A stretch of 41,085 bases of DNA from Rubritalea profundi (lineage in GTDB: Bacteria; Verrucomicrobiota; Verrucomicrobiia; Verrucomicrobiales; Akkermansiaceae), in NCBI RefSeq assembly GCF_002954445.1, contig NZ_MQWA01000001.1, positions 1,556,139 to 1,597,223 of the forward strand, written 5' to 3'. The position numbers were made by a program, and so were the translations under genes. The notes beneath the pieces are model-generated. The model saw nothing but the letters and a program-made list of their open reading frames with translations, was not told the DNA's origin and did no database searches. Shown piece by piece: positions 5,363 through 38,171 of this stretch. How positions within the stretch are numbered: position 1 is the stretch's first letter; each line of letters opens with the position of its first letter.

Positions 5363-5371
5363 GATAGGAGT

Positions 5372-7278: not shown

Positions 7279-7284
7279 GGCTGC

Positions 7285-8085
7285 CTAGTATTCTTTGAAC
7301 GCTGTGAGCAGTGGCTCGATCTCTTTTTGAGTAATCGACTGCGATGGAGCATGCAGCCAGTGCTCTATCTTTAGCACCAGTGGTGACGCCTCAGGGTGGG
7401 TTCGCAGCTGGGAAATAGCCTCGGCTGTTGGCAGCACGTCCAAACCGGGAACTTGCTTTTTCCAATGGCCAATGATTAGTCGCTCTAGGGTGGATTTCTG
7501 GGTCAAATCGAGTTCGCCGTGAGCAGTCGCCAGCACTAACTTCTGCAGCTTTTCATGGGTAGTCTCTACTCTAACTTCTTCGCCTAGGTTCTTGGGTTTC
7601 GGTTTGCGGTAGACGATAATGCAGACGAGCACGATGACCCACAGTAGTGCTGCTACCCAGATCGTGCTACGATAATTACTTAGATTTCCTGGTGTCGAGT
7701 ACTCCAGCGACTGCGGCTTAGGAAGGGTGTCAATGGGGTGCTGAGTGGTGATCTCTAGTGTAGTCTCCAGCTCGGTCACTGGCAGTTGGCTCTCAGTGAA
7801 TCTTAAAAATCGAGCGAGCGAGTGCACTCCAGCGTCTAGTCCATAGACCTCCATGTCGTAGCGGTATCCCTCAGACGCGGGCTTTATCTCGAGCACTCTG
7901 ATGACGAGCGAAGACGAGGAATCGGTCCGTGGAATCGGCTCTACCTTTTCTCCAGCGATGTAGATATCCGTGAAGCGCGTTGGTAAACCCATTGGCGCTT
8001 GTTGGCTTTCTACTGAGAAAAGTGGAGTCACTAACAGCAAAAATGCCGCTACCAGTAGCCGTGAGATGTGGGTGCGTGTAAACAT
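7285..8085 (-). CDS. Secreted/membrane protein of MoxR-VWA operons (DUF4381-like layout)
   Basis: 266 residues from the ATG at 8085, chosen because it begins a clean signal sequence (MFTRTHISRLLVAAFLLLVTPLFS). A longer frame from 8127 would overlap the DUF58 gene. The order is signal peptide, about 110 residues of beta-rich extracytoplasmic sequence, a transmembrane helix near residues 147-165 (IWVAALLWVIVLVCIIVYR), then a basic helical cytosolic tail of about 100 residues. Signal, beta domain, helix and helical tail match small proteins (DUF4381 and relatives) encoded between DUF58 and VWA genes in many Bat-type operons, but the sequence itself is not decisive. Likely a partner of the VWA proteins in the membrane complex. 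Confidence 0.6.
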   Translation of the reverse strand: MFTRTHISRLLVAAFLLLVTPLFSVESQQAPMGLPTRFTDIYIAGEKVEPIPRTDSSSSLVIRVLEIKPASEGYRYDMEVYGLDAGVHSLARFLRFTESQLPVTELETTLEITTQHPIDTLPKPQSLEYSTPGNLSNYRSTIWVAALLWVIVLVCIIVYRKPKPKNLGEEVRVETTHEKLQKLVLATAHGELDLTQKSTLERLIIGHWKKQVPGLDVLPTAEAISQLRTHPEASPLVLKIEHWLHAPSQSITQKEIEPLLTAFKEY

Positions 8086-8095
8086 TCTGAAATTG

Positions 8096-8944
8096 TTAGC
8101 GCGAGAGTAAATGGCGGGACTGAACAAATAACCTCAAGGGTGCCAGAATTGGCTTGTTCGTATGGAGGGCAAGGTGGTCTACCGAGGATTTTTTTAAGGC
8201 AGCCGTGGTGTCTTCTAAGCGTGAGAATTCTTTTTTTGCTGAGATGGTAAACTCGCGTTTCGACTCTACCTCTTTGCCGCGGATCAGTCCTGCGCCTCGG
8301 AGGTCGTCTTCAGCGGGGTCTCGCAGAATCAGCGATACCACATCGTGTTTATGATTGAGCCTCTTGAGTGCGCGAAGCACATCGGGGTCGTGAAAGTCAG
8401 ACAGCACAAAAATCAGGGTATTCTCTCCCAGAGAAGGACTCAGCGAGATGAGTTTTTCTGCGAGGTGGGTGCTCTCGTTGAAGTCGTAATTCCGTAGCTC
8501 GTGGAGCCATGTTAGTATCGTGTCGCGTGAGAGCGAGGGCTTGATATTGAGATCTCTCGAACCAGCTCCCAGTATGCCAACGGGTGAGACTTTATCGATG
8601 CAAGACAAGGCTAATCCACCAGCAATTTGTACGGCTAACTGGTACTTCGAAATGGTCGTCGAGGAGAGTGTCATCGATGCCGAGGTGTCGACGATGAACC
8701 AGACTGGAAGACACTTTGGGGTCTCGTATTCTTTGACGTGAGTCACTCCGGTGCGGGCACTCACTCTCCAGTCGATTGATTTTACTGGATCGCCCTGAAC
8801 ATAGGGGCGCGACTGGACATACTCGATTCCTTGGCCAAGCAGCTGCGATCTATCTGTTCCATAAGATAGAGAGTCAGCAAGTCGCTTGATTGCTATGAAA
8901 AACTGGCGTGAGTCCAGCGGGTCTGTGTGCTCGAGTAGCGGCAT
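8096..8944 (-). CDS. DUF58-family protein of the MoxR operon
   Basis: 282 residues with the DUF58 signature: a Y-x-x-GD-x-x-x-x-IDWR-x-SAR stretch at residues 48-64, followed by a VWA-like strand ending in DTSASM (86-91) that retains the D-x-S-x-S metal motif. No signal peptide or membrane segment is evident, so the protein is probably cytoplasmic or peripheral. It follows the MoxR gene by 15 bases and precedes the secreted partner gene by 10 bases. In MoxR operons DUF58 proteins are thought to link the ATPase to membrane VWA proteins. The ATG has no Shine-Dalgarno, like its neighbours. Confidence 0.85.
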   Translation of the reverse strand: MPLLEHTDPLDSRQFFIAIKRLADSLSYGTDRSQLLGQGIEYVQSRPYVQGDPVKSIDWRVSARTGVTHVKEYETPKCLPVWFIVDTSASMTLSSTTISKYQLAVQIAGGLALSCIDKVSPVGILGAGSRDLNIKPSLSRDTILTWLHELRNYDFNESTHLAEKLISLSPSLGENTLIFVLSDFHDPDVLRALKRLNHKHDVVSLILRDPAEDDLRGAGLIRGKEVESKREFTISAKKEFSRLEDTTAALKKSSVDHLALHTNKPILAPLRLFVQSRHLLSR

Positions 8945-20012: not shown

Positions 20013-22874
20013 TTAGCGCTTGCCCTGGCGTATTTCTCTGAGCATTTGTTCTACAGAAATCACCTCCCCACTCGACTCCCAGGTATCGACATTAGCACGA
20101 ATAGCCGCCAAGGACTCATGGACGCCAACACGCTTTCTTTCCCATTCCGGATAGTCCTTCACCATCGTCAAATAGCGATGTGCTAGTTGATAAGCAATCT
20201 GTCTATCAGCCTTCTCCCCCGTCATTTCTGGACGGTTTCTTTGCCAAGTGAGCTCACTTAACCTCTCTACAGACGGCGCAGAAACAGCCAAAACCCGTGT
20301 GTATCCCGCAAAAACACGAGAATAATTTGCCATCGCATCTTCATTCATTCCCCTCAAATCGTAGGATTTAGCTAATAGGTACCAGACTCTCGAGCGACGA
20401 TAGTCGAACTTATGTTTTGTTAGATATTCTTTAGACTCATTTGTTAGAACATCCCACGACTGGAGCTTGGAGAGAACTTCTATCGATTCGTACATAGCTT
20501 TTTCCAGCAATTTCTCATCTTCGCCAAAGCGCTCCAGCAAGTTAGTAATCAATCTCTGCGCTTGCTTTAAATCAGACTCAGTCGCGGATACCCTTAAAGA
20601 ATTTACTATGCCAAGAACTGCGATTTTTTGCTGGCGAATCAAATCAGACGACCGAGCGTTAGCAAAATGATCACGAGACAACTGAGGGAAATTCTCATCG
20701 ATCAGATACCATTCGCCCAGAGCCAAATCGATATAGCTAGGAAGCTTAACATCTTTGGCCTGCAGTGAGAGTTCGGCGTACATGCCCCGTAAGGTAGCAT
20801 CGTAGCGCAATTTAAGCCCCCAACTTGTATGCGCTTGATCAAGACCTGCAGCATAAACTTCAATCAGAGCAAACCACTGCACTGAACTAAAGTGGGAAGG
20901 CTCATGAGAGCTAAACTGAAGCTTGAGCTCAGAAGGCTTCATTCCTGCGTCAATTCTAGCCCAGATCAAAGCGCTCGCAGCATCACGCACTCCAGCTTCC
21001 TTTGATGCATTACACGCAGACTGAAGAACCCGCTCAAGCGTCTTGATTCCACGATCTAACTCACCAGCATTTTTCAATGCAGCCATTGCCGCCGACGCTA
21101 CCTGAGCGGCATACGGGGAATCCGAAAATTTCTGAAAAAACGCGTCGTAGTAGGGCAGGCACTTTTCCATGTCCGAGTTGGGTTCCCCTGCCACTTTTTC
21201 ACGGCCGTAGAAGGCGATTAGGTAGAACATGACTTCTTGCTCCAGCTCTAGCAAGTGGGAGGATCTAGCCAACTTGAGCGCATCTAGATACAAAATTTCA
21301 GCTGTCTCACGCTCTCGCAGAATGGCAGAAGTACGGGCTGAGAGCAGGTCTGCTTGAACCCGCAAGGTTGGATCTAACTCAAGCTCGCGAATCTCATCCA
21401 ATCGTTCTTGAGTTTTCAGGTAAGATGCTGACTCGAAATCTAGCATTGCCAGCTCATATTGAGCATAGACTTGGAGCCCACCAGTTGTGATCTCTGACAG
21501 AATAGAGCGAGCCTCAGCAGCGTAGCCCAGACGGGCGTAGTTCACCGCTTGGAAGTACCGCACGGACTCCGTGTGCTCACCATCTGAATATAGCTCCAAG
21601 TACTTAGCTGCTAAACTAAAGCTCCGATGATACTCGCCTAAAAAACAAGTCGAACCAGCCATCACATAAAGTCGGTCTTCATTTTGCTCCCCAGCTCCAG
21701 CTGAGGCAGCCTCAGCCAATGCTAAAGCCTCTGCATATTGGCCAGCATCGAAAAGGCTGCTTAGCTCTAGTAACTCAATAGAGCTTAGATAGTCACCATC
21801 CGGGAATTTAGATTTGTAGAGCTCGACATCTGCGCGTGCCAGCTCGATTTGGTCGAGTTCAAAATGCGCCACAATGCAGCGATACAACCATTCAGACACT
21901 CTAGCCGACTGAGGGAACCGCTCAATGAGCTGAGCGAGTAGATTACCCCGCTGCTGAGCTGATTGAGTATAGGCATATTGCTCAATCGAACGCGCGACTA
22001 GGACGGGATCACGCCCAACAGAATTTGAAAAATCTAACTTTTCTACAGGTTGCGCACTAAGCCATGACAGGACTCTAAGTAATGACTGAGTACTTTTTAC
22101 ATTACCATTATCAAAGAGTTTTTGAGCCGTCTTGCTCAGTGCTGCAAAAAACACATCTGAGTCATCTTCTAAACTGGGAGTCAACTCAGCCAACCAAGCC
22201 AAGAGAAGCAGTTCTTGCTCTGGAGAAAACCTGCCAGCCAACACGCCATACACATCTAGCACAACATCGCAGAGTGCCGCCGTCTCTATCTCGTAGCGTT
22301 TGCGCCCGTCCACGGCCTGCTGCAGATAGGTCAAGGTCTCGGCATTTACAGGTGAGGACCGACGCAATGAGCATGTTGTCAAATTCAACAGCAGGTTACC
22401 GTGGTCATACACATCGCTGATTTGATTTCGCTCCACTAAAAATGCTGCATACGCTGCATAAGCGGCGTCGAATTGCTTCAGCGCCTGATAGCACATTGCC
22501 ATGCGCAAAAGACTGCGACGAACGTACGGATTTTGATCATCTGGCGAACCAATAAAATTCCGACACTTTTCAAAATCTTTCAGTGCCTTCTGATAGAAAC
22601 CCTCACGTAACTCGGCTCCCCCCTCCTTTGCCAGCTCCATCTGACACAGCCCCATACTGAAAAGGAGCTTACCGTACACTCCTTCTGACACTCCGGCGGC
22701 TTGCTCAGCATCGTCGATCTCAGAAAACACAGAATAGGCTAATTGCCATTTTTCATTCTGCATCAAACTCACAGCCAGACGAAGCTGGTCATCCCCGACT
22801 TCTAGAGCGCATGCCACTGGGCTCGCCAGTGCTAGCAATGCAACTGTGATCCAAATCTGTACTGGCTTATTCAT
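20013..22874 (-). CDS. Large secreted TPR-repeat protein (paralogue of the 24033-27098 gene)
   Basis: 953 residues. A Sec signal peptide (MNKPVQIWITVALLALASPVACA) is followed by helical TPR-like repeats through the whole length, for example Y-A-E-A-L-A-L-A and F-D-A-A-Y-A-A-Y-A-A-F. No catalytic motif is seen. It aligns by eye to the 1021-residue neighbour at several points: LPYYDAFFQKFSDSP against LPYYDRFWKNHQNSP, and the end region with a D-x-W-E-S-S-G-E pattern against K-W-E-D-S-G-K. The two are duplicates. A terminator lies between it and the upstream gene, so it may have its own promoter. Likely a periplasmic scaffold in the ExbB/ExbD-linked system. Confidence 0.8.
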   Translation of the reverse strand: MNKPVQIWITVALLALASPVACALEVGDDQLRLAVSLMQNEKWQLAYSVFSEIDDAEQAAGVSEGVYGKLLFSMGLCQMELAKEGGAELREGFYQKALKDFEKCRNFIGSPDDQNPYVRRSLLRMAMCYQALKQFDAAYAAYAAFLVERNQISDVYDHGNLLLNLTTCSLRRSSPVNAETLTYLQQAVDGRKRYEIETAALCDVVLDVYGVLAGRFSPEQELLLLAWLAELTPSLEDDSDVFFAALSKTAQKLFDNGNVKSTQSLLRVLSWLSAQPVEKLDFSNSVGRDPVLVARSIEQYAYTQSAQQRGNLLAQLIERFPQSARVSEWLYRCIVAHFELDQIELARADVELYKSKFPDGDYLSSIELLELSSLFDAGQYAEALALAEAASAGAGEQNEDRLYVMAGSTCFLGEYHRSFSLAAKYLELYSDGEHTESVRYFQAVNYARLGYAAEARSILSEITTGGLQVYAQYELAMLDFESASYLKTQERLDEIRELELDPTLRVQADLLSARTSAILRERETAEILYLDALKLARSSHLLELEQEVMFYLIAFYGREKVAGEPNSDMEKCLPYYDAFFQKFSDSPYAAQVASAAMAALKNAGELDRGIKTLERVLQSACNASKEAGVRDAASALIWARIDAGMKPSELKLQFSSHEPSHFSSVQWFALIEVYAAGLDQAHTSWGLKLRYDATLRGMYAELSLQAKDVKLPSYIDLALGEWYLIDENFPQLSRDHFANARSSDLIRQQKIAVLGIVNSLRVSATESDLKQAQRLITNLLERFGEDEKLLEKAMYESIEVLSKLQSWDVLTNESKEYLTKHKFDYRRSRVWYLLAKSYDLRGMNEDAMANYSRVFAGYTRVLAVSAPSVERLSELTWQRNRPEMTGEKADRQIAYQLAHRYLTMVKDYPEWERKRVGVHESLAAIRANVDTWESSGEVISVEQMLREIRQGKR

Positions 22875-22949
22875 TTCTAATTTAACTTATAGCATAGGGA
22901 AATTCTTAGACCACATAGAGCGAAAAAAAGAAACCAATGGCCTTAGACC

Positions 22950-22980
22950 AAAAACACCCGTCCAAAAAATGGAACGGGTG
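22950..22980 (-). terminator. Terminator after the 313-residue secreted protein gene
   Basis: On the minus strand: CACCCGT, inner CCA/TGG pairs with a one-base bulge, ACGGGTG, then a run of five T. It lies 27 bases past the stop of the gene at 23007, separating it from the downstream TPR gene. Confidence 0.85.
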
Positions 22981-23006
22981 CGTGACTCAATTAATTTTGC
23001 GGGCTC

Positions 23007-23948
23007 TTACTTCTTCAGACCAGGGGCATCATCGGCCGTGAACTTAAGAAACTCCACATACTTAGCCGGCAGCGCTACACCCGCCCCCATGCCAGCCTTA
23101 TTGTAAAGACGTGCCAGGGCATTCGCCTCAGCCAGTAAACGATAACCAGAGGAGTAAATATCTTCATCGGGGCTCTTCCATAGCTTCATCGCAGCCTTCA
23201 CCTCAGGCATAGACTGGTACACACGAAGCGCTGCATGTACTGACTCCCGCACAATTTCCTCTGATTTTGAATAATCAGCCGTCATTGCCTGAGCATACAT
23301 ATTTAGAGCATCAGTCTTGCGGTCGAGAGCCTCTAGCGCCGTAGCATGGCAATAGGCAATCTGTGCACGTTGAGAGATTGGCACACGCTTGCTCTTCCAC
23401 TCGCCAGCAAGTCGATCAAGCCGAGCCCAATCCTTCGAGTTCAGAACTTCCCAAAACTTATACACTTCGAGCTGCTTGAGGAGATCTGTGCGAATAAGAT
23501 TTTGCGTGTCGTAGGCAGCCACTGCTTTCACGAGTTCCGCTGCCTTCAATTGCTTACGAAGACATTCGAGCTGATAGAAACCAGCGAGCGTGTAGTGGTT
23601 ATCTTTGATTGGCTGGAACTTCTTGTAACGCTCCATCACTTCACCAAACTTGGTGTGAGCTTCGCTATACTTACGATCTTCGAAAAGAGACATCGCCTCT
23701 GTGTATTCTTTCGGCTCCGTGATGTAGACTGAAGCAACAGAGCCGCGACGCTTATTGCTGACATCCACTGCCTTTATATTAGGCACATAGAAAATCCTTT
23801 TATCAGTAGCTCCCAAGAGCAACACTTTTTCGTATGTACTATCGGCCATGATGAGGAAGCCTCTTATCGCAACTCGCTCAGGTTGCTGAGCTGAAACATA
23901 CAGAGTGAAGCCAAAGATGGCTACCATGAGCATTGTGAGTAATTTCAT
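23007..23948 (-). CDS. Secreted protein of unknown function between two TPR paralogues
   Basis: 313 residues with a signal peptide (MKLLTMLMVAIFGFTLYVSA, cut before QQPE). The first 60 mature residues are beta-rich (RVAIRGFLIMADST, then KRIFYVPNIKAVDVSNK); the rest is helical with a TPR-like pair (YTEAMSLFEDRKYSEAHTKFGEVMERYK). I do not recognise the family. Position after exbB-exbD-exbD-TPR and before the terminator indicates that it is the last gene of that transcription unit and probably a periplasmic partner of the same complex. Confidence 0.75.
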   Translation of the reverse strand: MKLLTMLMVAIFGFTLYVSAQQPERVAIRGFLIMADSTYEKVLLLGATDKRIFYVPNIKAVDVSNKRRGSVASVYITEPKEYTEAMSLFEDRKYSEAHTKFGEVMERYKKFQPIKDNHYTLAGFYQLECLRKQLKAAELVKAVAAYDTQNLIRTDLLKQLEVYKFWEVLNSKDWARLDRLAGEWKSKRVPISQRAQIAYCHATALEALDRKTDALNMYAQAMTADYSKSEEIVRESVHAALRVYQSMPEVKAAMKLWKSPDEDIYSSGYRLLAEANALARLYNKAGMGAGVALPAKYVEFLKFTADDAPGLKK

Positions 23949-24032
23949 ATTCTTTGTTAAATATTTTTGTTAGTTGGCGCTCACAATTTCATTGTTTGTG
24001 TCGCCAGATATTTGGATTCAATCAATACTGGA

Positions 24033-27000
24033 CTACTTATTATTTTTTTCCATCTCCGCAAAGGTTTGGATTTTCCCGCTATCTTCCCATTTCATGACTC
24101 GGGCATCAATACGCTTCCATGTGGTACGAACAATTTCAGACATTTCATCTTTATGCTCATCAAATGCAGCGCGTGATGACTTGATGTATCGAGCTGCCAC
24201 TTCGTATGCCAGCTGTTGCTTCGATCTACCATCCTTTGCTGCCGTACCATGAGCCCACATAAGCTCGGTGGCACGGTTCATTGCAGGCACTGAGACATCC
24301 CAGTTTGATCTGTTGTTTCCAGCTAAATTTGAGTTAATTGCAATACATTTAAGATAATTTTTTTGCTCATCATATGCTTGTGCGAGGAGTTGCTGGATAG
24401 CCGTACGTTCTTTGGTGTGCTCCTCCAGATAGAGTACCCCTTCTTCGACCACCTTGTTCCAGTTACCCTGCTTAGCATAGATCTGAACCATGCTTGAATG
24501 CGCTTTAGCACGATTTTTCTTAGTAGTGTCCTTTTGCTTGATGACATCTTGCATCATTCCGATGGCTTTAGTCATCTCAGCATTGCTTCCAGCTCTACCG
24601 TAGATATCGGCAATACCAAACTCTGCAGATATACGGCCATTAGGCTGCGTATGTTTCAAGCGCTCTTGGTAATATGGCAGAGCCTGGCGAGGAGCTGAGG
24701 ATTTAGTACGAAGATAATCACCTATACGGATAAGAACAGAATCGGAGAGTTTTTCCACAGGATAAGCAGTCTTCAAGTCCTTGAAGGTGGCATTGATGCC
24801 AGCTTGGATACGGCTTACGAGAGCTTCATTTCCTTCTTTAGAGGCAATTTTTAAACTTTTTTCATAAACCCCAATCACAGCAATACGAAGTAACGCAAGT
24901 GCTCGGATATTTTTTTTATCTATACCTGGGAAGGTATAGTAATGCAACTTCAAGTTACTTATTGCATTTGACGGTGAGATTTTCTTTTTTTCCTGTGCCT
25001 GAAGATAATATACTGTGTATGTAGCAATAGTCTTTTCCAAATTCGAAAATTTCTTACGCTCTGCCATATCAGTAATCGCAAGCTGAAGATTAGATAAGGC
25101 TTCGTCATCTCGTCCAGCTTCAATCAAAGCCGGCATACCAGCAACTGCGAGCAGTCCTTTAAAAGGCGAGTTTTGGTGATTTTTCCAGAAACGATCATAG
25201 TACGGAAGAGCCTCTTTCATATTAGCATTAGGCTTTTTATCAATTTTCTCTGCACCGAGGAGGTTTACCAGCCGGTAAAGTGACTCACCCTGATTCACAT
25301 CACTGTCACTATCCTCAACAGAATCACATACCTTGAGAAAATATTTCTTAGCCTCATCAAGTTGTCCCATATTCTGTAAAATACTGCCTTTAAGGTTGTA
25401 TGCCGTATTTGCAACATTTGACTCATGAAACTCGGATTCGATACGTGCAATGTTTTCCAATGCTATTTCATCTTCCCCCTTGTAGGAGTGCACATTTGCT
25501 AGATCATTGAGGGCATAGGCTAAAAATACGTTTTTTGTAGAATCTGGGTACGTTTTAAGGAATTTTTTCAACTTCACACCCGCCTGATCCCACAACTGTA
25601 ATTGGGCCAGATTTGAAGCTTCAAAGTAATTAGCGGAAATACTATATTTACTCTTCTCATATAATTTGAGGTGCTCTTCCAGGTGAGGGCGAGCTTCAGC
25701 GAATTTCCCTAAGTAGAACTTTGAGCCACCCAAAACGTGCAGGCAAATATCGTGCAGAGGAGATGGCTTCGGCAAGTCAGCTATCATTTCACCAGCGATT
25801 AACTCACTTTCTTCATATTTACTATTCGCAAAGAGTAAAGAAAGCATCATATTTGCTGCAGGTTCACGGTACTTACTCTCTGGATATTTCGCGAGAAACT
25901 TTTGAGCATAACCCACAGTAACGGAAAGTTCATCTGCCACCGCCGAAGTCCGTACTAAGTTGTAAAGGTTCACCTCACGGCGGGTTGAATCGCGAAAATA
26001 GAGTTCGAGTTGCTCATATGCTCGGTATGCTCCTCGTACATTACCGTTAGATTCGTGAGTGAAGGCCAAAGCGCTGAGAGCTAGCACTTCTGGAGGGTCG
26101 CCGGAACGATCTTTATCGCGCAAATCGCTGTACCACTTGCTGATCCGTTCCTTAGAGATAAAATCGGAACCTTCTTTGATTGCTAAACCAGGATAAAGCG
26201 CGAGCTTTTCCTTAATCCCGCCTAAGTCGCTCAGAGCAACTTCAGTGCCTGGAATCAATGCGAACAGACTATATGCAGCCTGTTGCATGTCAGCAGTGAG
26301 AGCATCCGTCGCCAATTTCTGGAAAAAGGGACCAAATTGCACCATCTGGTATGGCCGCAGAGTGATTGCCGAGCGGTTTTGATTGAGAAAATCAATGAGA
26401 GCGCGCTCATTTTTGGTTGCAATCATAGCCCTTGTGAGAGCTTGGAATGCTGAGACAATAGCCGTATTTGGAGTTTTCCAACGGTCTTTATTCTTCAGAG
26501 ATGTATCAAAAAATACGATCCCTTCCTTGATCTGTGGTTCATCGAGTCTGAAGTGACAAATCGCCATATTAATCTGGTACATCCCTCTGTTGAACTTATC
26601 TCGAGGTCCTCGCTCAGCGATGAATTTTTTATAGCTAGTAATGGCTTCCTCGTACTCCTCTAACGCCTGGTGTGCTTGGCCTTTACAAAGAAGCGATTTC
26701 TTGTGGTAAATATTCTTACTTTTGTCATCCGACGGGATTGCATAAGATTTTGTAAACGATTCTTTCGCAAGGCTAGAATATTCAGCGGCCTTGGCAAGGT
26801 TCTCCTCGCCTCCAAGCCCCTTAAAATTCGTTGCCATCTTTTGCTCAGCATAACCTTTATTGTAATAAATGATCCCAAAACGTCCGCCAAAAAGACGCTT
26901 ACCGCGGTCGCCGCCGTAGGATTCAATAATTTTAGCGAAAATTCCTTGCGCTTGTTCCCATTTTTTTTCATTCATTGCTTGGATCCCTAGGGGTACCGCT

Positions 27001-27098
27001 TCCTGGATATCTTGAGCGCTTACTTGTGTTGGGGCCATACCAACGAGTGACGCCCCAGCTAGAGTAAAGGCGATTGTTAGAGAATGATGAGTTTTCAT
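24033..27098 (-). CDS. Large secreted TPR-repeat protein linked to ExbB/ExbD
   Basis: 1021 residues. Signal peptide (MKTHHSLTIAFTLAGASLVG, then MAPTQVSA, likely cut before QDIQ), then TPR-type helical repeats over the whole chain, e.g. AMNEKKWEQAQGIFAKI, QALEEYEEAITSYKKFI, KGEDEIALENIARIE and NMGQLDEAKKYFLKV. No enzymatic motif, no membrane helix at the C-terminus. It follows exbD2 by 128 bases and is the paralogue of the gene at 20013-22874. TPR arrays bind peptides or proteins. I infer that it couples the ExbB/ExbD motor to an outer-membrane or periplasmic task. Confidence 0.82.
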   Translation of the reverse strand: MKTHHSLTIAFTLAGASLVGMAPTQVSAQDIQEAVPLGIQAMNEKKWEQAQGIFAKIIESYGGDRGKRLFGGRFGIIYYNKGYAEQKMATNFKGLGGEENLAKAAEYSSLAKESFTKSYAIPSDDKSKNIYHKKSLLCKGQAHQALEEYEEAITSYKKFIAERGPRDKFNRGMYQINMAICHFRLDEPQIKEGIVFFDTSLKNKDRWKTPNTAIVSAFQALTRAMIATKNERALIDFLNQNRSAITLRPYQMVQFGPFFQKLATDALTADMQQAAYSLFALIPGTEVALSDLGGIKEKLALYPGLAIKEGSDFISKERISKWYSDLRDKDRSGDPPEVLALSALAFTHESNGNVRGAYRAYEQLELYFRDSTRREVNLYNLVRTSAVADELSVTVGYAQKFLAKYPESKYREPAANMMLSLLFANSKYEESELIAGEMIADLPKPSPLHDICLHVLGGSKFYLGKFAEARPHLEEHLKLYEKSKYSISANYFEASNLAQLQLWDQAGVKLKKFLKTYPDSTKNVFLAYALNDLANVHSYKGEDEIALENIARIESEFHESNVANTAYNLKGSILQNMGQLDEAKKYFLKVCDSVEDSDSDVNQGESLYRLVNLLGAEKIDKKPNANMKEALPYYDRFWKNHQNSPFKGLLAVAGMPALIEAGRDDEALSNLQLAITDMAERKKFSNLEKTIATYTVYYLQAQEKKKISPSNAISNLKLHYYTFPGIDKKNIRALALLRIAVIGVYEKSLKIASKEGNEALVSRIQAGINATFKDLKTAYPVEKLSDSVLIRIGDYLRTKSSAPRQALPYYQERLKHTQPNGRISAEFGIADIYGRAGSNAEMTKAIGMMQDVIKQKDTTKKNRAKAHSSMVQIYAKQGNWNKVVEEGVLYLEEHTKERTAIQQLLAQAYDEQKNYLKCIAINSNLAGNNRSNWDVSVPAMNRATELMWAHGTAAKDGRSKQQLAYEVAARYIKSSRAAFDEHKDEMSEIVRTTWKRIDARVMKWEDSGKIQTFAEMEKNNK

Positions 27099-27226
27099 GG
27101 GTGTCTAAGAAAAAATTGAGTTTTGAAAAAAGGCGTGATCCGAGGAACGCGCCCTAAAAAGGCACTATTGTTATGAGTAGTAGTATAACGCTACTAAGTG
27201 AGAGTTTATTAGCAATAAGTGCAAAA

Positions 27227-27688
27227 TTAGTCATTGGAGAAATCCGTGAAGGTGACTTTCTGAATTTCTAAACCAACGAGGCAGTTGAGCACGTCAATGA
27301 CCGATTGCTGAGACGCTTCACCACGAACAGCCACCTGAACAAGTGGGTCCTCGTTCGCGGCAGATGCTCCATCTTTATAGATCAGAAGCCGTTGCGCCAA
27401 AAGCGGCAAATTACGCCTCGCGCCTGATGCCGCGAGATCGAGACTTTCTTCTTTATTCACTAGGATGGATCCATTATCCAGAATTTCGATAAGCATCGGC
27501 TTAAGATCTGGCGGAGTATCCGAGGGAGCTTGAGACGGCAAAGTCATGCCGAGGTCACTCTCACGTGGTTGAATCGTCGCCGTCACCATGAAATAAATGA
27601 GGAGGAGGAAACACACGTCAATCAATGACGAGATGTCCAATTCTGGTTCATCATCTTCTGGAACGAGTCCTTTTTTACGTCTGGACAT
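27227..27688 (-). CDS. ExbD/TolR-family protein (second copy)
   Basis: 153 residues. Basic cytosolic start (MSRRKKG), then the membrane helix with the family signature: DISSLIDVCFLLLIYFMVT (about 18-36), where the Asp of LIDV is the proton-binding aspartate. The rest is a periplasmic alpha/beta domain ending in a strand near VTFTDF. Function in the family: proton-driven motor partner of ExbB. It lies 26 bases after the first exbD; the two are only distantly similar. Confidence 0.9.
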   Translation of the reverse strand: MSRRKKGLVPEDDEPELDISSLIDVCFLLLIYFMVTATIQPRESDLGMTLPSQAPSDTPPDLKPMLIEILDNGSILVNKEESLDLAASGARRNLPLLAQRLLIYKDGASAANEDPLVQVAVRGEASQQSVIDVLNCLVGLEIQKVTFTDFSND

Positions 27689-27714
27689 AGTATTCTAAAT
27701 TTTTATTGGGTTTT

Positions 27715-28167
27715 CTAATTCTCGAAGTCAAACGCTGAGAAAATAACACTATCAACACCGGCCAAGGCTGCAGCCTTGATCACCTTCCGTGTATACTTGA
27801 ACACAGACTCCCTATCACCACGAAGGTGGAGACGTGGATCAAAACCTTGGTTATCATACTTCTCCTTGAACGCTTTAACGTATTCAGTGATGTCTTCATC
27901 AGTCTCTAATGGGCCATCCTCCACATCGATTGGGTAGATAGTTCCATCGGAGCGTACGTTGACGACGATACGTCCGCGCTTCTCTTCAGGCTGCTTCGCA
28001 TTGTAGGCTACAGAGGGCTTCACCTTGGCGTCCATTTTCACCACCATCGGTGTGGACACCACGATGAAGAAAACGAGGAGCAGGAAAACCATGTCAATCA
28101 TTGGTGACATGTCCATCTTCGCTTCGTCCTCTTCGCGGGCGCTGAGTTCTCTTAGTTTATTTGACAT
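27715..28167 (-). CDS. ExbD/TolR-family protein (first copy)
   Basis: 150 residues. Acidic cytosolic start, membrane helix DMSPMIDMVFLLLVFFIVVS (about 19-38) with the conserved proton-carrying Asp in MIDM, then a periplasmic domain with RIVVNVRSDGTIYP, LRGDRES and AGVDSVIFSAF, as in ExbD/TolR. One of the few starts here with an SD-like AGGA seven bases before the ATG. It follows exbB by 90 bases that contain a hairpin. Confidence 0.92.
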   Translation of the reverse strand: MSNKLRELSAREEDEAKMDMSPMIDMVFLLLVFFIVVSTPMVVKMDAKVKPSVAYNAKQPEEKRGRIVVNVRSDGTIYPIDVEDGPLETDEDITEYVKAFKEKYDNQGFDPRLHLRGDRESVFKYTRKVIKAAALAGVDSVIFSAFDFEN

Positions 28168-28204
28168 TGAAATTCCTAGTTCGTAATTACGATTGAGGAG
28201 ACTA

Positions 28205-28231
28205 GGCGCAGCTTCATAGAGTTACTGCGCC
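28205..28231 (-). promoter_or_regulatory. Hairpin between exbB and the first exbD
   Basis: Seven-bp perfect stem GGCGCAG/CTGCGCC with a 13-base loop inside the 90-base gap. No T-run follows. ExbB is required in about 2.5-fold molar excess over ExbD in known motors, so a stabilising or partially attenuating hairpin would fit. Confidence 0.55.
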
Positions 28232-28257
28232 ACCATTCGTGTCGCCTTATCGAAGGC

Positions 28258-29043
28258 TTAAACGGCTAGACCCTCAGGAATCTTAGCAAGATGTGCTTCA
28301 CCGTTCACAGTCTGTACAGAAGCATTGATAAGTTCCTCAGCTGTTTGGTGACAGTCCGCTACGAGGTTGTTGTAGCGAGATTTAAAGAAGAAGTAAGCGA
28401 TCACTGAAGCAATCGCAATCACTAGTCCCCACATAGTTGTAAGAAGCGCAATCGAGATATCTCCCGCAAGTTGAGATGGATCAGCACCAGCTTGCTCCAA
28501 TGTGGCGAAGGCTGCGATCATACCGAACACTGTACCAAAAAGACCCATCATCGGAGCGGACTGAGCCACCAGTGAAATAAGGTTGATCCAGATCATCTGC
28601 TTGCGGTTCTCGTTGATAGAGAAATCAGCAATCGCATCTTCGACGGCATCACGCCCAAGAGTTTCAGGCTGAGTAGCATCGATGTTAGGAAGGGAATAGG
28701 CAAGCATACGGCCAAGGTAGCTTGGGTGTGATGCTCCAAGCTCGATAGCCGAGCGAACACGGCAGTTGAGCATGTGATCGAGGAGAGCTTCTTTGAGATC
28801 ATCAGGTGCAAACTTTGCCTTACCGAGGTTGATGAAGTTATAGACGCTCAAGCCCATAAGTGAGAGAATGCCGACAGCAACAATGAACCAAGTCAATGGA
28901 CCACCATCTAAAAAGTAGGAGTCCAATGCACTTTTTTCATTTTTTGCGGCAGTGTCTTGGGCAAACAATGGAGCAGTTGCTAGCAATGTTGTGAAGAGAG
29001 TAATTCCAGCTGTTCTAAGCGGTCGAGGCGAAAGATGTTTCAT
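28258..29043 (-). CDS. ExbB/TolQ/MotA-family proton channel protein
   Basis: 261 residues with a cleavable signal peptide at the front (MKHLSPRPLRTAGITLFTTL, then LATAPLFA), as in the long ExbB forms. Three membrane helices follow: WFIVAVGILSLMGLSVYNF, then ISLVAQSAPMMGLFGTVFGMIAAF with the GLFGTV family signature, and SIALLTTMWGLVIAIASVIAYFFF with the conserved threonine region. Forms the pentameric channel around ExbD helices and uses the proton gradient. First gene of the motor operon. Confidence 0.95.
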   Translation of the reverse strand: MKHLSPRPLRTAGITLFTTLLATAPLFAQDTAAKNEKSALDSYFLDGGPLTWFIVAVGILSLMGLSVYNFINLGKAKFAPDDLKEALLDHMLNCRVRSAIELGASHPSYLGRMLAYSLPNIDATQPETLGRDAVEDAIADFSINENRKQMIWINLISLVAQSAPMMGLFGTVFGMIAAFATLEQAGADPSQLAGDISIALLTTMWGLVIAIASVIAYFFFKSRYNNLVADCHQTAEELINASVQTVNGEAHLAKIPEGLAV

Positions 29044-29323: not shown

Positions 29324-29974
29324 CTATTTTTTGGTAACAACTGGCGATTTTCTCAGCGGAAAAAGTGTGGAGCAAAACCCACAAACAGTCCCATCACAAC
29401 CACGTGCTGTGCAGGCGTCACGACCATAAAAAATGATCTGTAAATGAAGCTTATTCCATTTCTCTCTGGGGAACAGCCTCTTAAGGTCGGCTTCGGTCTT
29501 CTCGACATTTTTTCCATCAGTCAGCTTCCACCGCTGGGCGAGCCGGTGGATGTGTGTATCCACAGGAAATGCCGGCACTCCAAACGCCTGAGCCATCACC
29601 ACCGAGGCGGTCTTATGACCCACCCCGGGCAATGCCTCCAATGCGGCAAAATCTTGCGGCACCTCACCAGCATGCTGCTCCATCAAAATCTTAGAGAGGC
29701 CGGCAATGGCCTTCGACTTTCTTGGTGACAAGCCACAGGGCCGGATAATCGCTTGAATATCTTCGACGGCGCACTGGGCCATATCTGACGGGTTGTCAGC
29801 TAACTCAAAAAGAGCAGGAGTGACGGTATTCACCCTTGCATCCGTGCACTGAGCCGAAAGCAAGACCGCTATCAGCAAGGTGAATGGATCTTTATGATCT
29901 AACGGGATTGGAGTCTCCGGATAGAGCTCTTCCAACCGATGCATCACCCACTCAGCCCTCTCTGCTTTCAACAT
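29324..29974 (-). CDS. nth: Endonuclease III (DNA glycosylase/AP lyase) with atypical cluster cysteines
   Basis: 216 residues from the ATG at 29974 (MLKAERAEW), which matches the E. coli start. Earlier options are an ATG at 29986 and a TTG at 30010. Helix-hairpin-helix LPGVGHKTA carries the catalytic lysine K121; VDTHIHRLA carries the catalytic aspartate D139; LLIAVLLSAQCTD is the N-terminal signature. Base-excision repair of oxidised pyrimidines. The C-terminal cysteines are C188, C193, C198, C201 (spacing 4, 4, 2), not the C-x6-C-x2-C-x5-C of E. coli Nth, so the usual 4Fe-4S loop is changed or absent. The GKNVEKTEADL region is normal. Confidence 0.95.
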   Translation of the reverse strand: MLKAERAEWVMHRLEELYPETPIPLDHKDPFTLLIAVLLSAQCTDARVNTVTPALFELADNPSDMAQCAVEDIQAIIRPCGLSPRKSKAIAGLSKILMEQHAGEVPQDFAALEALPGVGHKTASVVMAQAFGVPAFPVDTHIHRLAQRWKLTDGKNVEKTEADLKRLFPREKWNKLHLQIIFYGRDACTARGCDGTVCGFCSTLFPLRKSPVVTKK

Positions 29975-30034
29975 AAAAGAACACATATCCAATGAGCCTT
30001 CACTTGCCAAGGCTGGAGCAGCACCTCTCTCTAC

Positions 30035-32715: not shown

Positions 32716-32967
32716 CACCCCTACAACCTCACCGATCACTCCCCCATTCGGCAACTATAATCTAGCAGAAGATTTGCAAGCCCAATGGGTGAAACCCATT
32801 TCCTACCGCGAAATAAACGAAATTGACGAAAGCTGAATAGATCTCAAATCTTGCGCAGCTGCTCTGGACTGCTAGTGGCTCGACACCGCTCTGCGGCAGA
32901 CTAAGCTAGCCGCAGCATCCAGTAGGTGTCTCCCCTTCGAGACTCTTCCACAGTCCATTCATTTTTT
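32716..32967. promoter_or_regulatory. Divergent promoter region, AAA+ gene versus sulfatase operon
   Basis: About 250 bases. Contains ATGGGT-GAA-ACCCAT near 32785-32799 and a 7-bp hairpin CTGCGGC/GCCGCAG at 32891-32915 that lies in the probable 5' leader of the first sulfatase. No confident -10/-35. Confidence 0.45.
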
Positions 32968-34386
32968 ATGAAATCACTCAAACTACTCGCACTCATTTCC
33001 TGTCTACTCAGCATCGCCAGCGTGGATGCTAAAGACAGCTCGGACACACATAAGAATATTCTTTGGATCTATGTCGAAGATCTCTCACCTTGGATCGGGG
33101 CTTACGGTGACGACATCAACAAAGAATCCACCCCAACCTTAGACAAACTCGCCGCCGACGGCGTGCTCTTTGAGCGCTGCTACACACCAGCTCCGGTTTG
33201 CTCCGCCACCCGTTCCGCTATGATCACCGGCGCCATGCAGACCACTAGCGGCACCCACAACCACCGATCATCCCGCGACAAAAGCGCCCTCATCCAGCTA
33301 CCAAAAGGCTGGAAAACTCTGCCACAGATTTTTCAAGAAAATGGTTACGCCACCTTCAACCGCGGCAAGGACGACTACAACTTTGATTACAAAAGATCTG
33401 AGCTCTATTCCATCGGCAACGGACAAAAGAAAGGAATCGCCCAGAGAGGCACTGGCAATTTCAGCGAACTCCCCGCCGACAAACCTTTCTTTGTCCAGAT
33501 TCAGCTAGCTGGTGGGAAATCCAGAATCAAAAATGGAGCCGTCAAAGCCGACGACATCGAGGTTCCTCCCTATTTCCCCGACACCCCAGTGTTCAAAAAA
33601 TGGTGGGCGCACCACTACAACACAGTCCGCAAGACAGATGCTGATGTGAAGCGCATACTTGCCGAGCTTGAGCAATCTGGACGCGCAGCCAACACCGTCG
33701 TCTTTTTCTTTTCGGACCACGGCAACAACCACTCTGTCCGCCATAAACAATTTTGCTACGAAGGCGGAGTCCGCGTGCCACTCATCGTAGCTGGGGCTGG
33801 TCTACCAAAGAACCAGCGCCGTAAAGACCTCGTCTCAGGTCTAGACATCAGCGCTGCCACACTGGCCATCGCCGGCATCGAAGCTCCTGCATGGAGCGAA
33901 GGCAGAGACTTATTCTCCAAAGACCACCAGCCTCGCAACCACGTCATCTCCGCCCGTGATCGCTGTGACTACACCATCGATGTCACACGCACCGTGCGCA
34001 CCGAAAAGTTCCGCTACCTTCGGAACTTCAAGACCGACCGCATTTACCTCCAACCACAATACCGCGACTCCAAGGACTACATCAAACAGCTCAAGAGCAT
34101 GCACGCAGCGGGTAAACTCAGCGAGCTGCAGGAGAAAATCTACTTTAGTAAGCGCCCAGAGCACGAACTCTACGACCTAGAGAAGGATCCATTTGAAATC
34201 AACAACCTCGCCACCGACCCCAAACATGCCACAACTCTCCAACAGCACATCTCTATCCTAGAAAACTGGCAGAAAGAAACTGGCGACAAAGGCATGCAGC
34301 CAGAATCCCCAGCCGGACTCAGAGCCGTCTACAACCGCTGGAAACAGAAGTGTGTGAATCCAGAGTTCGATCAATTTAAAAATTAG
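32968..34386 (+). CDS. Secreted S1-family sulfatase with C-x-A-x-R motif
   Basis: 472 residues from the ATG at 32968, which begins a clear signal peptide (MKSLKLLALISCLLSIASVDA). An upstream frame to 32926 is non-coding-like. The active-site motif is PVCSATRSAMITG: C78 is the residue to be converted to formylglycine, but position +2 is Ala (C-S-A-T-R) instead of Pro. Other landmarks are N-I-L-W-I-Y-V-E-D with the metal-binding acidic pair, FFFSDHGNN and YEGGVRVPLIV. Needs a formylglycine-generating enzyme or anSME, not in this window. It resembles N-sulfoglucosamine-type sulfatases in the N-terminal part; the substrate cannot be read. Ten bases separate it from the next sulfatase. Confidence 0.9.
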   Translation: MKSLKLLALISCLLSIASVDAKDSSDTHKNILWIYVEDLSPWIGAYGDDINKESTPTLDKLAADGVLFERCYTPAPVCSATRSAMITGAMQTTSGTHNHRSSRDKSALIQLPKGWKTLPQIFQENGYATFNRGKDDYNFDYKRSELYSIGNGQKKGIAQRGTGNFSELPADKPFFVQIQLAGGKSRIKNGAVKADDIEVPPYFPDTPVFKKWWAHHYNTVRKTDADVKRILAELEQSGRAANTVVFFFSDHGNNHSVRHKQFCYEGGVRVPLIVAGAGLPKNQRRKDLVSGLDISAATLAIAGIEAPAWSEGRDLFSKDHQPRNHVISARDRCDYTIDVTRTVRTEKFRYLRNFKTDRIYLQPQYRDSKDYIKQLKSMHAAGKLSELQEKIYFSKRPEHELYDLEKDPFEINNLATDPKHATTLQQHISILENWQKETGDKGMQPESPAGLRAVYNRWKQKCVNPEFDQFKN

Positions 34387-34396
34387 CTCCATCAAT

Positions 34397-35866
34397 ATGC
34401 TCAAAAAGAATTTAAGCTTCACTCTACTTTGCCTACTCAGCTCCCCAGCCTTCAGCGCATCTGAGAAACCGAACATCGTCTTCATCCTCGCCGACGACCT
34501 CGGCTACGGTGAACTAGGATGCTATGGCCAAGAGAAAATAAAGACCCCTAACATCGACCAACTCGCAGCCGAGGGCATGAAGTTCAACTACCATTATTCC
34601 GGCGCGCCCGTCTGCGGTCCAGCCCGCTGTGTGCTCCTCACTGGAAAAAATCTGGCCCACGCCGAAGTCCGCAATAATGGCGAAATAAAGACCAAACCAA
34701 AGGGCAAAGAAGCATTCTACGGTGGCCAGACGCCGCTCTCGCCAGAGGCGGTAACCATCGCTGAAGTTCTCAAAGAACAAGGCTATGCCACTGGCGGCTT
34801 TGGTAAGTGGGGGCTCGGAGCCACATGGAGCACTGGCTCACCTATCAAGCAGGGATTCGACCGATTCTACGGCTACAATTGCCAGCGCAACGCCCACAGC
34901 TTTTACCCTGCCTACCTCGATAGCGACGAAGATCAAGTCACCATCAACAAGCATCCTATTCCAGGTCGCGCACGCCAACCAAAGGGAGAAGTGCTCGCTG
35001 ACACCTACCGTGCAGAGAGCTACGCACCTGACCTCATTCTCGACGAAGCCGTCAAATTCATCGGCGCAAACAAAGCCAAGCCCTTCTTCCTCTACCTGCC
35101 ATTCGTAGAGCCACATGTCGCCATGCAGCCTCACCAAGAAGACATCAATAAATACCCTAAATCATGGGACACTAAGCCGTACCGCGGTCAGCAAGGTTAC
35201 CTCCCCCACCCACGCCCACGCGCTGGCTACGCTGCCATGATCACGGACCTAGACAACCACGTCGGCACCATCGTCACCAAACTCAAAGCCGAAGGCATTT
35301 ACGATAACACCCTCATCATTTTCACCTCAGACAATGGGGCCACAACGGATGAGGGCGGAGTGGACACCCAGTTCTTTAATTCAGTAAACGACCTCCGCGG
35401 GCGTAAAGGCTCAGCCTACGAAGGCGGCCTCCGCGTTCCCATGATCGTCCGCTGGAAAGGCCACATCGAAGCTGGGACCACCAACGACACGGTCAGTTAC
35501 TTTCCTGACTGGTTCCCCACTCTCACTGACATTGCCGGCGCTGATATTTCTAAATCCGACGGCATCAACCTCCTGCCAGCCTTTTCAGGCCAGCCAGTAG
35601 CCAAGCGAAATGAACCCATGTTCTGGGAGTTCCACGGCTACGGCGGCATCATCGCCATCCGCGACGGCAAATGGAAAGCCATCCGCCGCGGGATAAAATC
35701 AAAAAAACCAAAGAACTGGGAACTCTACGACATCCAGTCAGATCCCAAGGAAAAACACGACCTCGCGAAACAGAACCCAGAGCGCGTCCAATTGCTCGAA
35801 AAATCTTGGCTCACCAGTCGCACCGTGAACCAAAAGTTCCCACTTCCACTGGTCGACAAAAAGTAA
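34397..35866 (+). CDS. Secreted arylsulfatase A-type sulfatase
   Basis: 489 residues with signal peptide (MLKKNLSFTLLCLLSSPAFS). Canonical C-x-P-x-R in PVCGPARCVLLTG with the modifiable C73 and R77. Metal-binding D33-D34 in FILADDLGYG, then GFGKWGLG (lysine), VEPHVAMQPH (histidine), and TSDNGATT with the D-N pair and the YEGGLRVPMIV segment. Full-length family member. Hydrolyses sulfate esters in the periplasm or outside the cell. Cotranscribed with the preceding sulfatase. Confidence 0.95.
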   Translation: MLKKNLSFTLLCLLSSPAFSASEKPNIVFILADDLGYGELGCYGQEKIKTPNIDQLAAEGMKFNYHYSGAPVCGPARCVLLTGKNLAHAEVRNNGEIKTKPKGKEAFYGGQTPLSPEAVTIAEVLKEQGYATGGFGKWGLGATWSTGSPIKQGFDRFYGYNCQRNAHSFYPAYLDSDEDQVTINKHPIPGRARQPKGEVLADTYRAESYAPDLILDEAVKFIGANKAKPFFLYLPFVEPHVAMQPHQEDINKYPKSWDTKPYRGQQGYLPHPRPRAGYAAMITDLDNHVGTIVTKLKAEGIYDNTLIIFTSDNGATTDEGGVDTQFFNSVNDLRGRKGSAYEGGLRVPMIVRWKGHIEAGTTNDTVSYFPDWFPTLTDIAGADISKSDGINLLPAFSGQPVAKRNEPMFWEFHGYGGIIAIRDGKWKAIRRGIKSKKPKNWELYDIQSDPKEKHDLAKQNPERVQLLEKSWLTSRTVNQKFPLPLVDKK

Positions 35867-36335: not shown

Positions 36336-38171
36336 ATGAACCAAGATCAACTCAACTTCATTTTCATCGGCATCACCTTCGCGGTGTATGTCACTATCGC
36401 CCTGCGTTCGCGTGCAGGATCCACTAAGGAATACTACACCGCTGGTGGTGGCGTATCCCCACTCGCCAATGGCATGGCAACTGCAGCCGACTGGATGTCA
36501 GCAGCCACCTTCATCTCGATGGCTGGTGGAATTGCAGCTTCTGGTTACGACGCCTCACGCTTCCTCATGGGTTGGACTGGCGGCTTCGTGCTACTCACAG
36601 TTCTGATGGTTCCTTACCTCCGTAAATTTGGCAAAGCGACTGTCCCAGACTTCCTAGGCGACCGTTATTATTCCAAGCTCGCTCGTGGAGTGGGCGTGGT
36701 TTGCGCGATCTTCATCTGCATGACCTACATCATGGGGCAGATGAATGGAGTAGGCGTGGTTTTCTCACAGCTCTTCGGTATCTCGCTTACTAAGGGTGTG
36801 CTCATCGGTGGCACTATCGTTTTCTTCTATGCTGGCCTCGGCGGCATGAAAGGCATCACTTACACTCAGGTGGCTCAGTACTGCGTCATGGCATTTGCCT
36901 ACACCATCCCCGCGATCTTCATCGCCATAGCGATGACTAACAACGTCATCCCTCAGCTCGGACTCATCGGCGAGTACACTGCAGGAGCTGGCGACCCCGT
37001 CCCCTTCCTTGAAAAGCTCAACACCATCAACACCGATCTAGGCTTCAGCCGATTCACCGATGGCAAGATGAGCACCATCGACATGTTCTGTGTCACCGCA
37101 GCGCTTATGTTTGGTACTGCTGGTCTGCCGCACGTGATTGTTCGCTTCTTCACTGTGAAAAACGTCAAAGCTGTACGTAAGTCCGCTTGCTGGACACTTC
37201 TCTTTATCGCAGTGATCTACCTCACGGCTCCAACAATCGGAGCGTTCGCCCGCGTCAACCTCATCGAATCGCTCCACAATACCTCGTACAAAGAAGCTCC
37301 AGCCTGGCTCGGCAACTTCGAGGAAACCGGCCAGATGGCATGGGTGGACAAGAATGGCGACGGCAAGATCCAGTACTTCGGCCCTGAGAAGTTAGATGAA
37401 AACAATAAGAAATACGGGAGCAACAAAGTATTCCAAGCCAAAAAGCCAATTTATCCACCGGAGGAAACACCAACTGGTCAACTCATTGGAGTTCATGGTG
37501 AGCGCTTACTCGCGGTCAAAGCCGACATGTCTAACCCGAACGAACTATGGTTCGGTAAAGACATCATGGTGATGGCTAACCCGCAGATGGCTGGCCTTCC
37601 AAAATGGGTGATCGCTCTCCTCATGGCTGGTTGTATCGCAGCGGCGCTTTCCACTGCTGCTGGACTTTTGTTAGTTCTTTCTACTTCGATCTCACACGAT
37701 TTGATGAAAAACATCATCAAGCCGGATCTCAGTGATAAAGAAGAAGTGCGCTACGCTCGTATCGCATCATTCGTAGCACTCTCGGTCGCTGCATGGTTCG
37801 GTATCAACCCACCTTCCACGTTTATTGCAGAGACAGTGGCTCTCGCCTTCGGTCTCGCCGCCTCATCCTTCTTCCCGACTTTGCTCATGGGTATCTTCTC
37901 AAAGCGCGTCAACAAAGAAGGAGCGATCGCAGGTATGGTCTGTGGAATCGGCTTCACCATTGGATACATCGTATACTTCCAATTCCTCGATGGTCCTAAA
38001 GACCAACTCCTCCTCGGCATCAGCCCTGCAGGTATCGGATTCGTTGGCATGCTCATCAACTTCACAGTGACCTTCATCGTCTCCGCCTTCACCCCTGCTC
38101 CTCCGAAAGAAGTGCAGGACATGGTAGAGTCCATCCACATCCCATCGGATGCGGGGGACGCCAGCCACTAA
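36336..38171 (+). CDS. Sodium:solute symporter large subunit (VC_2705/ActP-like)
   Basis: 611 residues, about 13 membrane helices of the SSS family; the front reads [31 protein letters not shown], the family pattern. Between helices in the middle is a long soluble insertion (about residues 310-415) that includes a 12-residue EF-hand-like loop starting at D338 ([12 protein letters not shown]). The next helix contains [21 protein letters not shown]. Acetate or small organic acid uptake driven by Na+ is the usual assignment; the substrate is not certain. Followed by a bidirectional terminator. Confidence 0.92.

Follow-up and report, generated by a model that had tools for sequence, protein, structure and literature searches.

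What does a proton-driven motor of the ExbB-ExbD type move when it is encoded together with giant tetratricopeptide repeat (TPR) proteins and with no transducer at its side? The question is raised by a block of minus-strand genes in a 41,085-nt stretch of the genome of Rubritalea profundi (the window, to which all coordinates without a locus name refer). We favour the answer that five of these genes are orthologous, in the marine Rubritalea group, to the locus MUL1 known from Akkermansia muciniphila, whose product would energise the import of large glycans; taken jointly with that mechanism, the identification appears probable. MUL1 is a mucin-utilisation locus, reportedly described by Davey in 2023. 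The genome of the window (G000) comprises 4.17 Mb; NCBI places Rubritalea in the Verrucomicrobiales, Rubritaleaceae, and we take the Rubritalea group to be marine.

Identity and conservation of the five-gene unit

A first-pass annotation of the DNA had listed six open reading frames (ORFs) of 261, 150, 153, 1021, 313 and 953 codons, all on the minus strand. These were recovered at the same positions, and Pfam bore out the family calls: MotA_ExbB, two ExbD proteins and TPR repeats in both giants. Pfam and NCBIfam scans of the block gave no match to a TonB, TolA, TolB, Pal or receptor family, as the annotation had held. The features are:

28258..29043, minus strand: ExbB of the MUL1 type, 261 amino acids (Pfam MotA_ExbB, 2.2e-24; in the MUL1-type clade)
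27715..28167, minus strand: ExbD1, 150 amino acids, pore aspartate D25 (Pfam ExbD, 4.2e-18; in the ExbD1 clade)
27227..27688, minus strand: ExbD2, 153 amino acids, pore aspartate D24 (Pfam ExbD, 5.3e-17; in the ExbD2 clade)
24033..27098, minus strand: putatively secreted giant TPR solenoid, 1021 amino acids, here TPR1021 (Pfam TPR matches; conserved with the motor)
23007..23948, minus strand: putatively secreted protein of the Mul1B family, 313 amino acids (NCBIfam NF052542.1, 1e-69, 235.2 bits against a cut-off of 75)
22954..22981, minus strand: terminator-like hairpin that may close the five-gene unit (10-pair stem, T-rich tail; a consensus match only)
20013..22874, minus strand: TPR paralogue of 953 amino acids, outside the conserved unit (Pfam TPR families, all below curated cut-offs)
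29324..30010, minus strand: nth (endonuclease III), upstream neighbour, not part of the machine (TIGR01083, above cut-off)

The block can be read as a MUL1 orthologue because the 313-amino-acid protein matched the family model NF052542, 'Mul1B family putative transporter subunit', far above its cut-off and over residues 1-303; no Pfam model matched this protein at E <= 0.01. The gene order agrees as well. In genome G062, presumably that of A. muciniphila ATCC BAA-835, locus L078 reads 3D, nth, exbB, exbD1, exbD2, TPR (1101 amino acids) and mul1B (347 amino acids), the same as the window and including nth and 3D upstream. Identities between the two were 52% for ExbB, 41% for ExbD1, 45% for ExbD2, 22% for the TPR protein, 25% for Mul1B, 62% for Nth and 55% for 3D, and the two TPR proteins are orthologous by position and by sequence (2e-48). 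What sets the window apart from the gut locus is its marine lineage, the identity of just 22-25% in the TPR and Mul1B proteins and an extra TPR paralogue downstream.

The conserved unit, judged from gene order in relatives, is exbB-exbD1-exbD2-TPR-mul1B (23007-29043, minus strand). That a TPR gene is tied to exbB-exbD-exbD had been proposed from the window alone, and it held: synteny was complete at 62 of 78 named loci, the other 16 were cut by contig ends and no locus with room lacked it, in a set that was found by TPR patterns and is biased to close relatives. Upstream, nth was present at 44 of these 78 loci, contig-end loci counted in. At E <= 0.001 the Mul1B model had matches in 47 of 58 relatives (35 above its cut-off). 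Over the window's family, which we took to be the Akkermansiaceae of GTDB and which was represented by 260 genomes, Mul1B occurred in 209 genomes and 15 of 16 genera (205 genomes above the cut-off). A second sample was drawn by Mul1B itself and comprised 59 loci (L038-L097 without the 10-base placeholder L088), namely 40 of 48 Mul1B match rows, leaving out the window's own and the seven weakest, plus 19 loci chosen from the 209 Mul1B genomes. All five genes lay together at 47 of them, two of which (L075, L076) have one extra gene inside the set and were counted as complete, and five more were cut by contig ends (L053, L062, L064, L065, L072). With a threshold of E <= 1e-60 for the MUL1-type ExbB, Mul1B and ExbB occurred together in 182 of the 260 genomes, Mul1B only in 27, ExbB only in eight and neither in 43 (Fisher p about 1e-22, a value that ignores kinship). 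One genome of an Akkermansia-like genus, g3, which is 99% complete, had neither Mul1B nor the MUL1 motor (G066).

The second giant TPR protein does not belong to this unit. The first-pass annotation had spoken of paired giants, which failed: among the loci mapped, a second giant TPR gene was seen at two only, the window and L046 of genome G006. In the tree it grouped only with the L046 copy, at 27% identity and on long branches. We discard it as a partner in the machine and read it as a lineage-specific extra. The terminator-like hairpin (22981-22954) lies between mul1B and this gene; matches of this sort exceed the chance level in that region by a modest margin only, 19 having been counted where shuffles gave 10.5 +/- 3.2.

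Complete cassettes were present in the isolates Roseibacillus persicicus KCTC 12988 (L117), Persicirhabdus sediminis KCTC 22039 (L121) and Luteolibacter marinus NBU1238 (L122), and in metagenome-assembled genomes titled Rubritalea (L098, L162) and Roseibacillus (e.g. L100). Going by their names, we take these organisms to be marine. A 2026 paper on the Akkermansiaceae reported that MUL1 synteny is absent in aquatic members and suggested a mucin-specific adaptation (PMC13174399); that study may have scored MUL1 otherwise, by identity or by more genes. Three further loci come from records titled Akkermansia muciniphila (L119, L137, L147), with TPR proteins 35-36% identical to that of the window, against 22% for G062; these names look doubtful. 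PilM, which is MUL2B-like, was found in eight of eight genomes searched, G000 included, but also in 9 of 14 controls, and carries little weight.

The arrangement itself, which the first-pass annotation had called new, is not: MUL1 is published, and a permuted relative, the TPR-tolQ-tolR-tolR-vWA cassette, is in print in the available text of PMC12204202. New here are the aquatic spread of MUL1, its relation to the permuted (vWA) cassettes and its replacement by them, the age of the ExbD pair and the lack of a transducer.

The motor, the TPR rod and a proposed mechanism for glycan import

The proton aspartates noted in the window were intact throughout: D25 of ExbD1 in 71 of 71 relatives with a full-length protein and D24 of ExbD2 in 72 of 72. 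In ExbB the threonines T171, T202 and T203, which we take to be pore residues, were kept in 68 of 68 relatives, and a C-terminal motif A-[KR]-[IV]-P-E-G in 66 of 68. Motors of this class have five ExbB subunits to two ExbD subunits, and two distinct ExbD proteins suit the hetero-pair that had been suggested for the pore. In a quick, unrooted tree of 54 ExbD proteins a single branch with support 99 separated all ExbD1 from all ExbD2 proteins of both cassette types, so the divergence of the two ExbDs is most likely older than the split between the cassette types. Such an old divergence is as expected if each protein fills its own place in the pore. In ExbB trees the MUL1-type and permuted-type proteins formed a joint group that excluded seven further ExbBs from G000 and G062 (support 88, with long outgroup branches). 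The window's motor fell short of the TonB-system equivalog models (ExbB 44 bits against 206; the ExbDs 20 and 25 against 153) and stayed far below the cut-offs for TolQ (60 against 221) and TolR (34 and 40 against 127).

ExbB, both TPR proteins and the 313-amino-acid protein have N-terminal signal-like segments, as judged by eye; a lipobox pattern occurred in none of 66 Mul1B relatives and in 1 of 71 TPR relatives. Solenoid folds are predicted by AlphaFold with good confidence. TPR1021 (mean pLDDT 89, pTM 0.58) is modelled as helices nearly throughout from residue 31 to the end, and by our judgement of the model no second membrane segment is evident. Mul1B (mean pLDDT 92) is modelled as five strands (residues 28-76) followed by a TPR-like helical solenoid. 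Searches with these models add nothing specific on either protein. TPR1021 gave 273 matches at E <= 0.001, many of them to unrelated solenoids and with low TM-scores; a periplasmic scaffold of the Campylobacter flagellar motor (9hmf, rank 24), which was among them, was taken as a resemblance only. Foldseek returned no match for Mul1B at E <= 0.001, and a second fold search gave mostly TPR and other helical-repeat rows, the best with a Z of 12.9, which is in the range common for repeats. Sequence searches of the PDB returned TPR chains (CpoB included) and TolQ/ExbB, with two weak periplasmic-protein rows for Mul1B (E about 0.06). Identity with PorW/SprE of the type IX system was set aside: 34 of the 48 TPR members scanned matched that model at E <= 1e-5, TPR1021 not among them, and we treat this as shared TPR sequence. 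The 953-amino-acid paralogue matched the same model at 8.5e-4.

In the mechanism that we propose, ExbB would form a proton-driven pentamer around one ExbD1-ExbD2 hetero-pair, whose periplasmic domains would drive the TPR rod and Mul1B, either directly or via a partner encoded elsewhere. Rod and Mul1B would together make a two-part periplasmic scaffold. By analogy with MUL1, the motor stroke would power the passage of large glycans through the outer membrane, and enzymes attached to the TPR scaffold would then break them down in the periplasm; the substrate would be mucin in A. muciniphila and here perhaps a sulfated algal polysaccharide. Energising the uptake of large glycans is the likely function on this analogy. 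In A. muciniphila the build-up of mucin products in internal compartments reportedly depends on the mul genes (PMC12418764, available text; PMC13174399), a figure legend in the accessible part of PMC11790493 mentions Mul1A association of enzymes, and fucoidan accumulates inside the cells of marine Akkermansiaceae (PMC13174399).

Near the block the window carries a tandem pair of sulfatase genes (32926-35863), which we count in favour of this reading, and then a sodium:solute symporter gene (36336-38168). DUF58, vWA and TPR genes at 4783-8944 make up a set that resembles a Bat aerotolerance cluster.

Several observations weigh against reading the block as a glycan-importing MUL1 orthologue. The function is carried over from a gut species across TPR and Mul1B proteins that share 22-25% identity, and the TPR protein encoded next to mul1B, on its upstream side, in A. 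muciniphila is only presumed to be Mul1A. In G062, 1,076 bp separate exbD2 from the TPR gene, which makes their co-transcription uncertain. The five-gene unit encodes no outer-membrane channel, and none was identified. Seven of the 59 Mul1B loci (L056, L061, L068, L070, L087, L089, L094) have room for a complete adjacent motor and lack it; two of these genomes (G040, G043) have the motor elsewhere and the other five have a permuted cassette. Finally, 27 of the 260 family genomes have Mul1B and no MUL1-type ExbB, and three of these are single-contig assemblies (G149, G182, G194). The permuted cassette type is present in 19 of the 27, and the remaining eight are drafts of 72-93% completeness.

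The missing transducer

MUL1-type loci, as far as their gene content tells, are without the TonB-like arm that permuted cassettes often have. Among the 126 same-strand neighbours of the 62 complete MUL1-type loci only one passed our test for a TonB-like anchor, a doubtful case that does not look like an anchor, and nine of ten positive controls passed; the view that no TonB gene regularly accompanies the operon in other genomes thus stood. No vWA protein with a TonB-like anchor was found in the block, and inspection by eye of the six frames of the 1.1-kb stretch that separates exbD2 from the TPR gene of A. muciniphila showed no TonB-like remnant. Locus L243 (genome G538) reads exbB-exbD1-exbD2-anchor-TPR. 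Because its ExbB falls on the MUL1 branch (support 98) and the anchor is nevertheless present, the anchor may have been lost within that branch, and L243 is a possible intermediate between the two cassette types.

Could the block be an ordinary TonB-type energiser, its motor borrowed by a TonB-like transducer from elsewhere and its TPR proteins mere accessory scaffolds? TonB-dependent receptor plugs were present in 17 of 17 genomes searched, two of them in G000, and three other G000 loci (L263, L265, L267) encode TonB-like proteins with one N-terminal membrane helix, seen by eye, those of L265 and L267 also passing the anchor test. L243, with its anchor between exbD2 and TPR, points the same way. 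However, each anchor of G000 sits beside an ExbB and ExbD of its own, Pfam TonB_C found nothing in G000 and G006, unlike the 15 other genomes searched, which had a match, and near MUL1-type loci there is nothing beyond the doubtful case above. We consider this explanation unlikely. At L263 (7657-11999) the order is ExbB-ExbB-ExbD-TonB-like-TPR, which we take to resemble the Vibrio-type TonB2 clusters; its TonB-like protein is missed by TonB_C. Another ExbB-ExbD-TPR system, with a TPR protein of 785-810 amino acids, occurs in G000 (L266, 5636-9514) and G062 (L268, 15931-19637); its ExbB in G000 reads as two overlapping ORFs, perhaps through a frameshift.

Rather less probable is an envelope machine of the Tol-Pal kind, in which the TPR rod would act as CpoB does and link inner membrane, wall and outer membrane during growth or division. 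Escherichia coli couples a TPR protein to TolQR, which speaks for this idea, as does the NCBIfam model YbgF/CpoB, matched by 48 of 48 TPR members scanned (TPR1021 below the cut-off, 44 against 90 bits). Both systems join a proton motor to a TPR partner. But the block has no TolA, TolB or Pal, its motor scores far below the TolQ and TolR equivalog cut-offs, and its TPR protein is about four times longer (1021 amino acids against 263 positions of the CpoB model). Moreover, some near-complete genomes, G066 among them, have neither marker of the unit, which would be improbable if the unit served division. A surface-motility or adhesion motor resembling AglRQS-Glt of Myxococcus is very improbable: the available text of PMC3169522 describes the same motor layout, one TolQ-like and two TolR-like subunits (AglR, AglQ, AglS) with the TPR partners GltD, GltE, GltC and GltI, but M. 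xanthus encodes the motor of that gliding machine in one cluster and the TPR partners in another, the five-gene unit has no further gene to stand for the other Glt proteins, and Akkermansia, described as non-motile in the available text of PMC12418764, yet keeps the unit.

Kinship with the permuted cassettes and its meaning

In 387 genomes drawn from across the phylum (E <= 1e-45) ExbB scores fell into two groups, MUL1-type proteins at 269-450 bits and a second tier at 156-184 bits. The second-tier loci that were fetched usually read TPR, a gene of 276-367 amino acids, exbB, exbD1, exbD2, a permuted order of the kind known from the TPR-tolQ-tolR-tolR-vWA cassettes of the PVC superphylum (PMC12204202, a 2025 paper). 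In profile comparisons (hhalign) the middle genes of 14 permuted loci aligned with Mul1B over 251 columns (probability 98.8, E 7e-17). Mul1B scored lower against the giant TPR proteins (94.8 and 95.0, E about 4e-8) and reached 12.5 and 0.5 against control TPRs. The giant TPR proteins of the two types aligned over 852 columns (probability 100, E 2e-62); a TPR protein taken as control from a different ExbBD system also aligned (98.1, E 8e-14), so part of this likeness is general TPR kinship. By these comparisons and the trees above, MUL1 and the vWA-type cassettes are homologous in the TPR protein, ExbB/TolQ, the hetero ExbD/TolR pair and the Mul1B-like gene. In the literature searched, the available text of PMC12204202 included, neither the Mul1B-like gene of the vWA cassettes nor a link to MUL1 was found.

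Apart from gene order, the types differ in what follows exbD2. At 6 of the 14 permuted loci listed this is a TonB-like anchor with one His-bearing membrane helix, a mostly Pro-rich linker, and a vWA, PA14-like or cyclase-like output region. These anchors were found by eye, and Pfam support is weak or absent for several:

L249, 10553-12854: anchor and output region after exbD2 (Pfam PA14, 0.0012)
L251, 7313-8329: anchor and output region after exbD2 (by eye)
L252, 10521-11564: anchor and output region after exbD2 (by eye)
L255, 10488-11534: anchor and output region after exbD2 (Pfam VWA_3, 3e-5)
L247, 10697-11842: anchor and output region after exbD2 (by eye)
L259, 10955-12634: anchor and squalene-cyclase-like region after exbD2 (Pfam SQHop, 0.0011)

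The available text of PMC12204202 does not mention PA14 or cyclase-like outputs. No anchor was found at the remaining 8 of the 14, although L246 and L261 among these end before the place where it would lie, and the permuted loci L244, L250 and L256 yielded no exbD genes.

Across genomes the two types largely replace each other. A TPR model built from six permuted-type sequences (A7) gave 790-911 bits with held-out permuted TPRs and at most 143 with MUL1-type TPRs, and it found the permuted type in 59 of the 260 family genomes. MUL1-type ExbB only was present in 184 genomes, permuted-type TPR only in 53, both in six and neither in 17 (p 3e-33). The permuted type is confined to three genera; among their 101 genomes, two of which were assigned to a genus by list position, the counts in the same order were 39, 53, 6 and 3 (p 5e-18). 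Both p-values ignore kinship and overstate independence among related genomes. This search supersedes an earlier test on 24 picked genomes (10 of 11 against 0 of 13), which partly used poorly separating scores. The six genomes with both types show that replacement is not strict, and L156, a complete MUL1 cassette together with a permuted-type TPR, likewise speaks against strictness. In two genomes (G133 and G134; L261, L262) a motorless pair of MUL1-type TPR and mul1B lies beside a divergently transcribed permuted TPR-Mul1B-ExbB cassette. The replacement counts and these orphan pairs suggest that both machines fulfil one function and that a permuted motor may also work with the MUL1 scaffold.

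A tentative wider picture, which we hold with clearly less conviction than the main reading, is that a single ancient import machine of the Verrucomicrobiota, with a hetero-ExbD motor and a rod made of a giant TPR protein, gave rise to both MUL1 and the vWA cassettes as its two branches. On the MUL1 side the TonB-like transducer would have been lost and the motor would drive TPR and Mul1B directly, and the branches would replace each other between genomes. The link to MUL1 gives the vWA force-transducer cassettes a candidate function, glycan import. It also offers a natural experiment for MUL1 itself, since sister cassettes often keep a TonB-like arm and the types stand in for each other; it becomes testable whether a proton motor of this kind can act on a TPR rod when no TonB or TolA arm is present. 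Marine relatives carry the unit in the same order, so the substrate is probably large glycans in general, fucosylated or sulfated. The mucin-uptake motor of a medically important gut bacterium thereby moves from gut-specific to ancestral, which suggests that the gut machine is an old tool for the uptake of large sugars and not an invention of the gut.

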